Shown piece by piece: positions 20,965 through 63,148 of a stretch of 64,000 nt of DNA. This DNA is from Fredinandcohnia onubensis (GTDB lineage Bacteria; Bacillota; Bacilli; Bacillales; Bacillaceae_L): contig NZ_JAPSKV010000004.1 in NCBI RefSeq assembly GCF_031181385.1, positions 124,001 through 188,000 on the forward strand, read 5' to 3'. The notes beneath the pieces were generated by a model. The model had not been told where the DNA came from. It made no database searches and saw only the letters and a list, made by a program, of their open reading frames with translations. The translations under genes were made by a program, and so were the position numbers. Within the stretch, counting starts at the first letter, position 1; each line of letters begins with the position of its first letter.

Positions 20965-21151
20965 CTGTATTCAGTATATGACTGAACAAAGTAAAAAAGC
21001 CTACGGCAGATGCCACAGATTTTCAAAGGTAACTTTTCGAGCAGTAGGATCAAAGACTAAAAACGCCACCTCCTGTGGCAACGTCTTTATGACCCACTTC
21101 CTGTGGGCCTAAAATCTGGGCGCAAATACGCCAAGGCGTATTTTGATAAAT
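20964..21151. repeat. Dispersed palindromic mosaic repeat, family B, copy 1
   Basis: This fills the gap between the phoPR terminator and hflK. It contains TTTACTGTATTCAGT / ACTGAACAAAGTAAA as a flanking inverted repeat, GCCTACGGCAGATGCCACAG, two small hairpins (GCCACCTCCTGTGGC near 21065 and CCCACTTCCTGTGGG near 21093) and AATACGCCAAGGCGTATT near 21125. The blocks recur at 38461-38625 and 56881-57077 in other combinations. No ORF is supported. Confidence 0.7.
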
Positions 21152-37109: not shown

Positions 37110-37258
37110 GGTAATTGAATACTTGTTTGAGAAAGTAGAGGCACCCGCTTCTCACCTGATTGACGCAAATTGCAGTTGGTAGGTCTTACGTTCATTAATC
37201 ATTAATGTGTAAATGAATTGTAATAGTGTGGGTGTGTATACATTCACACTTTTTTGTT
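37110..37258 (+). ncRNA. L20 leader (ribosomal protein autoregulation) with terminator
   Basis: The region AGTAGAGGCACCCGCTTCTC near 37135 and GCAGTTGGTAGGTC near 37172 matches the pattern of the Bacillus L20 leader, which L20 binds to cause early termination of infC-rpmI-rplT. It ends in a hairpin GTGTG/CACAC (37225-37250) followed by a T run (37250-37255). The remaining bases up to infC form the start of the readthrough mRNA. Confidence 0.8.
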
Positions 37259-37326
37259 TGTCTCAAATCTGTAAAATGCGCAAGATTTCAAACGAGGCAT
37301 TCTTTAAAAAACCTTGGAGGTGGCTA

Positions 37327-38460: not shown

Positions 38461-38625
38461 GAAGCGACTTGAACAGAAATGAGGAAACTGGCCGACTAAA
38501 ATCGCCACGTCCTGTGGCAACATCGGCACTAGCACATCCTGTGCGTCGAAGACTTCGACAAAGAGGCGTACTTTGCCTCTGCCGGAGGAGTTGAAGTTTC
38601 ACGAATTTCTAGTCGCTGAAGCTAG
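38461..38625. repeat. Dispersed palindromic mosaic repeat, family B, copy 2
   Basis: Outer arms AGCGACT (38463-38469) and AGTCGCT (38611-38617) enclose a series of small hairpins: GCCACGTCCTGTGGC near 38503, GCACATCCTGTGC near 38532, GTCGAAGACTTCGAC near 38544, and AGAGGCGTACTTTGCCTCT near 38561. The first hairpin and flanks match copy 1 at about 21064. No ORF is supported. Confidence 0.7.
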
Positions 38626-43659: not shown

Positions 43660-43938
43660 TATATGCTTTACATATAGCTAAAAACAATGATTGAGACTAG
43701 TAACTTTCCACTCACTATCTAGGGAGAAAATGCCGTGACTGAAAGCATTTTTATAGAAGAAGAAAGTGAATTCACCTCTTGAGTTGGCACTTGGACCGTT
43801 TTTTTATTCAAAACGTAAAGGTGTACCGGCATTTGCCGTTATCGAAACGAAGTGAACAATTATTGTTATATAATTGTTAACAAGGGTGGTACCGCGAATC
43901 TAAACCTCGTCCCTTTTTTGGGATTGAGGTTTTTTATT
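43660..43938 (+). ncRNA. T-box leader (phenylalanine) of pheST
   Basis: The T-box core AAGGGTGGTACCGCG is at 43882-43896, followed by the terminator AACCTCGTCCC / GGGATTGAGGTT and T run (43903-43937). The specifier codon is TTC (43771-43773) in GAATTCACC, coding Phe. Stem I sequences precede it. Uncharged tRNA-Phe should favour readthrough into pheS. Confidence 0.95.
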
Positions 43939-58797: not shown

Positions 58798-59775
58798 ATG
58801 TCAAGAAAAGTAGTAGTTCTAGGAGAAACACGTGATGGTGCGTTACGAAACGTATGTTTTGAAGCAATTGCAGCTGGTAAAACTGTAGCAGAAGGCGGCG
58901 AAGTAGTTGCCGTGTTAGTCGGTGAATCTGTGGGCGCTTTAACCAATGATTTAATTCATTACGGAGCAGACCGAGTCGTAACGGTTGAAGATGAAAAATT
59001 AGCTTCATATACACCAGACGGCTTCTCACAAGCCGTTCTTGCAGCTATAGATGCTGAGTCACCAGAAGCTTTAGTTTTTGGTCACACATCATTGGGGAAA
59101 GACCTTTCACCAAAAATTGCTAGTAAATTGAATTCTGGTCTAATTTCAGACGTAACAGCAATTGAAGTTGCAGGTGGAAACATTGTCTTTACTCGCCCTA
59201 TCTATTCAGGCAAAGCATTTGAAAAGAAAATTGTGACTGACGGTCTAATCTTTGCGACCGTACGTCCTAACAATATAACACCACTTGAAAAAGATGAGTC
59301 ACGTACGGGAGAAGTTTCATCTTTATCCGTTGAAATTAAAGATTTACGAACAATCGTAAAAGAAGTTGTGCGTAAGGCAACTGAAGGTGTAGATTTATCC
59401 GAAGCGAAAGTAGTAATCGCAGGTGGTCGTGGGGTAAAGAGTGCAGAAGGCTTTGAACCACTAAAAGAATTAGCGAATGTTCTTGGTGGGGCTGTAGGTG
59501 CATCTCGTGGAGCATGTGATGCTGATTATTGCGATTACTCTCTTCAAATAGGTCAAACAGGAAAGGTTGTCACGCCAGACCTATATATTGCTTGTGGTAT
59601 TTCAGGAGCAATCCAGCATTTAGCAGGAATGTCCAACTCTAAAGTAATCGTTGCCATCAACAAAGACCCAGAAGCAAACATCTTCAAGGTTGCAGACTAT
59701 GGAATCGTTGGTGACTTATTTGATGTAGTTCCAATGCTTACTGAAGAGTTCAAGAAACTAAAAGTAAATGCATAA
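58798..59775 (+). CDS. etfA: Electron transfer flavoprotein alpha subunit
   Basis: A 325-residue EtfA with the FAD-binding C-terminal domain: VIAGGRGVKSAEGFEPLKEL, GASRGACDADYCDYSLQIGQ, TGKVVTPDLYIACGISGAIQ and NKDPEANIFKVADYGIVGD. It forms the heterodimer with EtfB. GGGGG precedes the ATG. Downstream comes the transposon-split RNA locus and then trxA. Confidence 0.97.
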   Translation: MSRKVVVLGETRDGALRNVCFEAIAAGKTVAEGGEVVAVLVGESVGALTNDLIHYGADRVVTVEDEKLASYTPDGFSQAVLAAIDAESPEALVFGHTSLGKDLSPKIASKLNSGLISDVTAIEVAGGNIVFTRPIYSGKAFEKKIVTDGLIFATVRPNNITPLEKDESRTGEVSSLSVEIKDLRTIVKEVVRKATEGVDLSEAKVVIAGGRGVKSAEGFEPLKELANVLGGAVGASRGACDADYCDYSLQIGQTGKVVTPDLYIACGISGAIQHLAGMSNSKVIVAINKDPEANIFKVADYGIVGDLFDVVPMLTEEFKKLKVNA

Positions 59776-59844
59776 TATTACGGTAAATGAGCTGAGGCTT
59801 TCTTATTTATAGAGATTTTTTCCATTTTACCTTTGAGAAATTTA

Positions 59845-59853
59845 TGGTATACT
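59845..59853 (+). promoter_or_regulatory. Extended -10 promoter of the candidate small RNA
   Basis: TG-G-TATACT is a full extended -10 element. The -35 region (TTTTAC at 59825) is poor. The start would be near 59860, exactly where the fold begins. Confidence 0.55.
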
Positions 59854-59859
59854 AATCAA

Positions 59860-59956
59860 GCGATGAGCTGAATTGCATAAGTCGAGTTGACACGCCTTTT
59901 GGCAAGGCACTATGTGGAGTGCTGTCCTCGCCGCAATACGCAAAAAGACGTCCTTC
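59860..59956 (+). ncRNA. Candidate structured small RNA, terminator split by a transposon remnant
   Basis: The bases form a nested fold: GCG/CGC (59860-59862 with 59939-59941), ATTGC/GCAAT (59872-59876 with 59933-59937), CGAG/CTCG (59883-59886 with 59927-59930), GACA/TGTC (59889-59892 with 59923-59926), then two hairpins GCC/GGC and GCACT/AGTGC (59907-59911 with 59918-59922). AAAAAGACGTCC follows, the left arm of an intrinsic terminator whose right arm, GGACGTCTTTTTT, now lies at 60376-60388 beyond an insertion. I do not recognise the family. It may be a free small RNA or an ancestral trxA leader. Confidence 0.55.
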
Positions 59957-59959
59957 TGG

Positions 59960-60369
59960 GGCTGTTGACAAAGTGGGAAAAGGAGCTTTAACTCCTTTCC
60001 CACTTTATTTTTTTCTACTTTTTTAGAATTTTATTACCCTTTTTAACGTTTATTATTGCTAATTTATTACCTTTATCATTCGTTTTAGGTTCAAAGCCAA
60101 CGCAGAAAAGAGACATTGTTCAAGAATTTTTTCAATGTCCCTCTTACTAGTTTTATGTAGGTTGTTATATATAAATAAAAAATCAATTTTCTCATTAATT
60201 TGGCGAAGAAGATGATTTGAAGGCACAAAAGCATTTAAATCAATGAACTCCAATTTACTTTGATATTCCTCTTTCCGACCCATCATAAAGCATTCCCCCC
60301 CAATAAAAGAACCTGTATAGATTAAATTCTATACAGGTTCTTAAAAATCCTATTAATTTGTCAACAGCC
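59960..60369 (-). mobile_element. Internally deleted IS1182-like element (about 410 bp)
   Basis: Terminal inverted repeats GGCTGTTGACAAA (59960-59972) and TTTGTCAACAGCC (60357-60369) are perfect over 13 bp. CCTTCTGG directly repeats at both ends (59952-59959 and 60370-60377); because of flanking G and C runs, a 4-bp repeat TTCT with a GGGG-ended element is an equal reading. Subterminal hairpins occur at each end: AAAGTGGGAAAAGGAG/CTCCTTTCCCACTTT and GAACCTGTATAGA/TCTATACAGGTTC. A remnant transposase ORF lies inside on the minus strand. It is non-autonomous. Confidence 0.85.
60059..60286 (-). pseudogene. Transposase remnant, N-terminus joined to C-terminus
   Basis: 75 codons. The first part (SKLEFIDLNAFVPSNHLLRQ, then INEKIDFLFIYNNL) is the DUF772 N-terminal region of IS1182-type transposases. 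The second part (ILEQCLFSALALNLKRMIKV) resembles their extreme C-terminus. The DDE catalytic core of roughly 400 residues is missing, yet the frame stays open across the join, so the deletion was in frame. It cannot transpose DNA but could encode a small DNA-binding fragment. Confidence 0.8.
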
Positions 60370-60375
60370 CCTTCT

Positions 60376-60388
60376 GGACGTCTTTTTT
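60376..60388 (+). terminator. Detached right half of the interrupted terminator
   Basis: GGACGTCTTTTTT matches AAAAAGACGTCC at 59942-59953. Removing the element and one direct repeat restores AAAAAGACGTCC TTCT GGACGTCTTTTTT, a textbook intrinsic terminator. Bases 60389-60555 hold nothing else I can identify. Confidence 0.8.
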
Positions 60389-60555
60389 ATTGGCCACGCT
60401 TAAAACAGATGTCTATAACCTCTATTATTACATACATAACAGCTTAAAAAGTTGGGGAAGATGACTATGTATGAAGTATAGTGTCTAATCTTATCATCTC
60501 TGATTTAGTTAACTGCTCATTTTGAAGCAAAAAATTCGTAAAATGACATTCCAGA

Positions 60556-60564
60556 TGGTATACT
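60556..60564 (+). promoter_or_regulatory. Extended -10 promoter of trxA
   Basis: TG-G-TATACT about 44 bases before the start codon. No good -35 is visible. Confidence 0.5.
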
Positions 60565-60607
60565 CTTGGTAGAATTTCAATGTTGTTACTTATTAGGAGG
60601 GGTTTAA

Positions 60608-60922
60608 ATGGCTATTACAAACGTAACAGACCAAAATTTTGATGCAGAAACAAAAGATGGATTAGTACTTGCAGACTTCTGGGCACCTTGGTGTGGACCA
60701 TGTAAGATGATTGCTCCAGTATTAGAAGAATTAGACACTGAAATTGGTGACAAAGTGAAAATCGTGAAACTCGATGTAGATGAAAACCAAGAAACTGCAG
60801 CGAAGTTTGGTGTAATGAGCATCCCAACTTTACTTGTAATTAAAAACGGTGAAGTTGTAGATAAAGTAGTCGGTTACCAACCAAAAGAAGCTCTTGCTGG
60901 CAGACTTGAAAGCCACTATTAA
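60608..60922 (+). CDS. trxA: Thioredoxin
   Basis: A 104-residue thioredoxin, the same length as B. subtilis TrxA, with the redox site [17 protein letters not shown] (CGPC) and the cis-proline loop [13 protein letters not shown]. It reduces protein disulfides and supplies ribonucleotide reductase. AGGAGGGG precedes the ATG. Located between etfA and uvrC; B. subtilis has an extra arabinofuranosidase gene (xsa) here that is absent. Confidence 0.98.
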
Positions 60923-62924: not shown

Positions 62925-62944
62925 CACTTCAACACGTTGAAGTG
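62925..62944 (+). other. Perfect hairpin just before the lysine riboswitch
   Basis: CACTTCAAC, AC, GTTGAAGTG: 9-bp arms with a 2-base centre. No T run follows. It may cap the 5' end of the lysC transcript or bind a protein. Confidence 0.5.
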
Positions 62945-62945
62945 A

Positions 62946-63115
62946 AGATAGAGGTGCGATCTTTATCAGTATGCAATTGGAGGGGTATGAGCCCTTACGA
63001 TCATTGCAGAAAGGAAAGTTCGCCGAAGTTTAAAAAGGCTCATACCTTTTTGTGCTGGTCTTATGTTTAAGAGACATAGGATTGTCAAGATGAATCAATC
63101 TTGGAGGGCTATCTC
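62946..63115 (+). ncRNA. Lysine riboswitch (L box) of lysC
   Basis: Conserved L-box blocks are present: AGATAGAGGTGCGATC at the 5' side of P1, the AAAGTTCGCCGAAG segment, CTGGTCTTATGTTTAAGAGA and CTTGGAGGGCTATCTC closing P1 (GATAG 62947-62951 with CTATC 63109-63113). Lysine binding should favour the downstream terminator and lower aspartokinase. Confidence 0.93.
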
Positions 63116-63148
63116 ACGAAGTGACACGTAGTATGTTTACGTATATCA

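Follow-up and report, generated by a model that had tools for sequence, protein, structure and literature searches.

CodY and the small RNA BsrF are reportedly the subject of a 2009 study by Preis et al. According to PMC3574147, BsrF of Bacillus subtilis is the same RNA as SR2 and is activated by CodY; rows of a table in that source count it with the RNAs that associate with Hfq in this species and place it between yobO and csaA. PMC4634765 calls BsrF SR1 instead, in conflict with PMC3574147 and PMC2784878, where SR1 is a separate entry. The family is held in Rfam as RF01411.

Mobile elements of the IS1182 family are known to be drawn to sequences that fold back on themselves. The targets of IS1272 described in PMC5678879, which does not use the word terminator, are inverted repeats, and the element takes their place. 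Hairpins are the targets of both TnSha1 and IS1272 in PMC4923244, which adds that several of these hairpins were confirmed as terminators and that three targets had been taken more than once by TnSha1. Among its alternative model pathways, PMC5678879 draws one in which the loop is duplicated (c) and one in which the entire stem-loop is (b). For ISPse1, an IS1182-family element of Paracoccus, the corresponding row in an excerpt of PMC3281130 reads 1653, 16/16, 4, taken here as length, inverted repeats and duplication. A literature search with most subscription journals outside it, and with its sources represented by partial text, found no report of an IS1182-family insertion in the terminator of a small RNA.

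The window, a stretch of 64,000 nucleotides from Fredinandcohnia onubensis, brings these two subjects together in the interval between etfA (58798-59775) and trxA (60608-60922). The named etfA loci closest to that of the window are those of F. onubensis, at 98% protein identity. A scan against all Rfam families identifies positions 59860-59966 as BsrF, at 73.5 bits where the cut-off is 50. The alignment covers model positions 1-113, of which 105-113, the 3' arm of the terminator, fall on sequence of the inserted element and are no real match; the genuine part of the match therefore stops near 59957. BsrF is the sole Rfam family above its cut-off in the etfA-trxA stretch; five others that were listed by E-value lie below theirs. 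The earlier note had described an RNA that it could not recognise. That description was wrong: the structured RNA is a well-conserved, already known small RNA, and what appeared to be a new RNA is struck off the list and now has a name.

The window copy is the single BsrF match in its genome. Among related genomes the family was found in 44 of 60, the genome of the window being counted, and throughout the order in 254 of 396 at an E-value of 0.001, with 246 exceeding the cut-off. The matches listed for the order extend down to 76 bits, the range in which copies with a split terminator would be expected. The only one of 14 control genomes to contain it was B. subtilis. A screen by regular expression missed most copies, and the covariance model was used instead. 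All 29 body columns that are identical across the other 43 copies are matched by the window sequence as well. The window RNA resembles BsrF of B. subtilis in scoring above the cut-off of the covariance model, in its fold, in having its own promoter and in being a stand-alone gene. It differs in its location, etfA-trxA as against yobO-csaA (PMC3574147, table row), in having a terminator split by an insertion, and in the outcome of a simple scan, which found no CodY box at the window copy.

The body of the RNA (59860-59941, + strand) starts with the invariant 5' sequence GCGATGAGC and has a branched fold carrying two apical hairpins. The helices TTGC/GCAA, CGAG/CTCG and GAC/GTC and both apical hairpins are pairs of the Rfam BsrF structure. 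The outermost A-T of the ATTGC/GCAAT helix drawn in the earlier note and the last A-T of its GACA/TGTC helix are absent from that structure. One Rfam pair (59877/59932) is an A-C mismatch in the window. Over the 44 aligned copies, 86.2% of the pair cells are standard, and 12 of the 19 Rfam pairs vary on both sides. Upon sliding the 3' partners by 1-3 columns, only 28 to 51% of the cells pair. The covariation score was found to be 0.280, compared with 0.138 for shuffles, which related sequences can beat without any structure, and with at most 0.086 for the slid controls, which retain the relatedness. Three pairs are left unpaired in part of the copies, one of them in 21 and the other two in 17 each. 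The paired helices of BsrF are conserved in the 44 sequences, and both the Rfam match and the covariation confirm that the structured RNA noticed earlier is real; the covarying pairs that had been proposed as a check are present, and the slid controls score far lower. The outer GCG/CGC helix has 93.7% compatible cells and not one change on both sides, so that this part of the earlier fold is a candidate helix.

In folding stability the body does not surpass shuffled sequences (z +1.16); thermodynamics alone would therefore miss this RNA, and stability was given no weight as evidence. Of its 78 positions, 19 of the 40 unpaired and 10 of the 38 paired are invariant in all 44 copies. The invariant positions include the 5' end, a UAAG loop and a UGUGG loop. 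Conserved loops of this kind on covarying stems would fit either a seed for base pairing or a site for a protein.

The extended -10 element TGGTATACT is situated at 59845-59853 on the + strand, with its hexamer at 59848-59853, six bases before 59860. A -35-like TTTACC (59826-59831, + strand) precedes the -10 hexamer with a spacer of 16. This -10 element is the only promoter-like site on the + strand ahead of the RNA in a scan of 59700-60620, which gave three sites against 3.4 expected by chance. The promoter is supported not by this count but because its pattern is conserved among the copies: TGnTAnnnT occurs 5-8 bases upstream of the RNA in 40 of the 44, the window included, and TAnnnT in 43, both being counts without a chance control. 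BsrF has its own sigma-A type promoter at its 5' end, and the extended -10 first read from the sequence, with its predicted start near 59860, stands. The same letters, TGGTATACT, form an extended -10 of trxA at 60556-60564. The TG of the extended -10 is absent from the BsrF copy of another genome of the genus (G008, locus L026), which lies outside the etfA-trxA interval.

The search for the CodY box that B. subtilis leads one to expect used the 15-bp CodY consensus. The best site upstream of the window copy agrees at 11 of 15 positions and was equalled by 27 of 100 shuffles. Upstream of all 44 copies the best 15-mers are no better than those of shuffles, the means being 9.8 and 9.9.

The terminator of BsrF is split in the window. 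Its 5' arm (AAAAAGACGTCC) occupies 59942-59953 and is followed by the tetraloop TTCT at 59954-59957; a second TTCT is found at 60372-60375, and the 3' arm with the T-run, now apart from the RNA, is at 60376-60388 (all on the + strand). The two arms, 59942-59953 and 60376-60387, are 422 bases apart because of the insertion and the duplicated loop. The terminator arm that the earlier note saw behind the fold is real, with its partner displaced, and the junction of 59957 to 60376 that it had proposed for the element-free sequence is exact. In F. onubensis strain 22V3 (L034/L021) the site is empty: AAAAAGACGTCCTTCTGGACGTCTTTTTTT is an uninterrupted hairpin with the loop TTCT, and the joined flanks of the window agree with this empty site at 92% over 410 bases. 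No intrinsic terminator directly follows the RNA body in the window, where the 414-bp element divides it. The intact form in 22V3 marks this as a secondary loss.

The inserted element extends from 59958 to 60371 and is bounded by 15-bp perfect terminal inverted repeats (GGGGCTGTTGACAAA), with TTCT on both sides as the target duplication. It contains a 75-residue open reading frame on the - strand (60059-60286), of which residues 6-46 correspond to the N-terminus of IS1182-family transposases; the remainder of the gene is missing. This frame matches the transposase family NF033551 with an E-value of 1.1e-8 over 41 of 488 positions, and its 34.4 bits are below the cut-off of 270. The element is a non-autonomous remnant of the IS1182 family. 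It is single-copy, and it is the only NF033551 match in its genome. Because the target is palindromic, each end could also be placed as much as two bases further inward, which would lengthen the duplication; comparison with the ends of the element in strain 10J4 (CAGGCTGTCGAGAAAG), described below, favours a duplication of 4 bp. The row for ISPse1 in PMC3281130, if read as above, gives a duplication of the same length.

An autonomous parent with the ends of this insert was not found by DNA comparison with the genome of the window and nine genomes of the genus, nor in plasmids. A protein search of 17 genomes of the family had hits in the window, in the 10J4 element and, weakly, at two sites in G008, and nowhere else. 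The 16-base end has one other match in the 396 genomes of the order, in G248, which shares just 17 bases. Inside the right end is a 15-bp perfect hairpin (60307-60342), which is also present in two plasmid relics, one in a Metabacillus plasmid (L166, 2501-2567) and the other in a plasmid labelled Arthrobacter citreus (L167, 2501-2574). These relics consist of the right end only and keep the end hairpin, in which one pair differs, by eye, among the three: A-T (window), G-C (L166) and G-T (L167).

Since a long distance now separates the two arms of the terminator, transcription of BsrF most likely ends inside the element. The proposed replacement terminator is a hairpin with a T-rich tail inside the left end (59972-60014, + strand), the best site in a scan for terminator-like structures; the RNA fold of 59958-60012 has a z-score of -3.23. 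Within the 44 copies of the relatives search, which are those of the 254 order genomes whose 3' ends were inspected, the best hairpin with a T-run is 0-15 nt from the start of the scan in 42. It is located inside an element in the window (offset 34) and in strain 10J4 (offset 29). In both elements the transposase reads against BsrF, and a hairpin with a T-run is situated just inside the end into which BsrF reads.

The best explanation of the locus, to which we assign a probability of about 0.9, is that it is a BsrF gene with its own promoter and a terminator split by an IS1182-family element, inside which the RNA now ends. The gene (59860-59957) would be transcribed from its extended -10 promoter. 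The element entered the loop of the terminator hairpin, duplicating the four loop bases, and then lost most of its transposase, unless it arrived already shortened. The hairpin with its T-run near the left end of the element would most likely be where transcription stops. The RNA would then measure about 150 nt, some 40 nt more than the usual length of about 110, and would be similarly lengthened in 10J4. BsrF would still be made and, we infer, would act in trans.

Alternatively, the insertion might have killed BsrF by causing read-through into the element and degradation of the RNA, leaving a gene on its way out. The split of the native terminator agrees with such a loss, as does the weak fold of the 5' arm with the first bases of the element (-5.6 kcal/mol, compared with -16.7 kcal/mol for the native hairpin). 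A generic terminator scan of 59700-60620 likewise returned no site (0.6 expected by chance) and did not flag the inner hairpin. However, a strong hairpin with a T-rich tail begins about 18 nt past the arm, and the body still fits every column that is identical in the other 43 copies, as it would also do after a recent insertion. Loss of the RNA is unlikely on this evidence, with perhaps a minor share of the probability.

The reading of BsrF with an exchanged 3' end is joined by a second case. F. onubensis strain 10J4 (L035, L030) carries a different IS1182-family element, of 1574 bp, in the same BsrF terminator. Its transposase of 450 residues scores 490.9 bits, above the NF033551 cut-off, and is the only NF033551 match in the 10J4 genome. 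The element entered at the hairpin foot and is accompanied by a 20-bp duplication, that of the hairpin AGACGTCCTCCGGGACGTCT; the first native hairpin copy remains, with its T-run lost. Among the 44 BsrF loci, taken with flanks of 1.5-2 kb, matches to the 10J4 transposase occur in the window and in 10J4 only.

A single ancestral insertion of an IS1182-family element, later replaced or rearranged in one lineage, would account for the family, the orientation and the terminator that these close relatives all share. It would leave unexplained that the end sequences differ, that the 75-residue frame and the 10J4 transposase are only 46% identical over 39 residues, that the insertion point is the loop in the window and the hairpin foot in 10J4, that the duplications measure 4 and 20 bp, and that the site is cleanly empty in the related strain 22V3; such a history is improbable. 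The two insertions look like independent events, because their ends, insertion points and transposases differ.

The terminator of a BsrF copy in another genome (G055; L122, 2001-2104) is long, GAGGCTGTTGGTAAGGA...TCCTTACTGACAGCCTC, and its arms are similar to the ends of the insert in the window. This terminator might be the trace of an older insertion.

Eight of the nine BsrF copies in the genus lie between etfA and trxA; that of G008 (L026) lies elsewhere. None of the 22 copies from other genera (L004-L033, of which L022 is short on one side) has a match to EtfA, TrxA, EtfB or UvrC within about 1.5 kb, and at six of these loci (L004, L005, L009, L014, L016 and L018) the flanking proteins are, by eye, mutually different. 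In the best 80 named etfA loci, a few of which end soon after etfA, a model built from the 44 copies finds BsrF in four, all from the genus. Such a distribution is that of a stand-alone gene which has changed its place, and a leader bound to trxA would not show it. Of the two roles suggested in the earlier note, that of a stand-alone small RNA, equipped with a promoter and a terminator, agrees with BsrF, and that of an ancestral element regulating trxA is unsupported. A cis-acting leader of trxA, whether riboswitch or attenuator, would suit the position in those eight genomes and is nevertheless rejected as highly improbable, because none of the 22 copies from other genera has etfA, trxA or uvrC nearby, few of the etfA loci carry BsrF, the RNA has its own terminator in 42 of the 44 copies, trxA has its own extended -10, and Rfam classes RF01411 as an sRNA gene.

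Other RNA elements were seen in the window in the Rfam scan. These are a lysine riboswitch aptamer at 62941-63119 (131.9 bits), a T-box leader at 43678-43917, an L20 leader at 37127-37261, and two matches to the Bacillaceae-1 RNA family at 21041-21107 and 38477-38545.

The two insertions resemble those of IS1272 and TnSha1 in the transposase family, NF033551, to which the 10J4 enzyme and the remnant in the window belong, and in having a terminator hairpin as the target. Repeated independent insertion into one hairpin, which this locus appears to show, is reported for TnSha1 in PMC4923244. The outcome at the target is different. IS1272 and TnSha1 are reported to delete the stem-loop, wholly or in part, and to make no duplication, whereas here the loop alone (window, pathway c of PMC5678879) or the whole hairpin (10J4, pathway b) is duplicated.

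A survey of targets was made for a part of the other NF033551 matches in the genus, and no general hairpin preference of the family in the genus is claimed from it. Two matches just below the NF033551 cut-off (L146 and L148) have clear 14-bp repeats and apparent duplications ACCT and ATTA; no hairpin target is visible there, either in a crude scan for inverted repeats or by eye. The ends at L142, L143, L144, L145, L147 and L153 were not placeable.

If each terminator were equally likely to be hit, chance would hardly place two single-copy elements, in two of nine genomes, in one terminator, although there are only two events. It is conceivable, at somewhat less than even odds, that IS1182-family elements in search of hairpins land preferentially in the BsrF terminator, splitting or disarming it and supplying their own, and that the small RNA persists with its 3' end renewed. 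If so, one site would record both the loop-only and the whole-hairpin duplication that are drawn as models in PMC5678879. The locus is a natural test of the tolerance of a small RNA to the exchange of its terminator, and of the way in which IS1182-family transposases select and cleave their hairpins.
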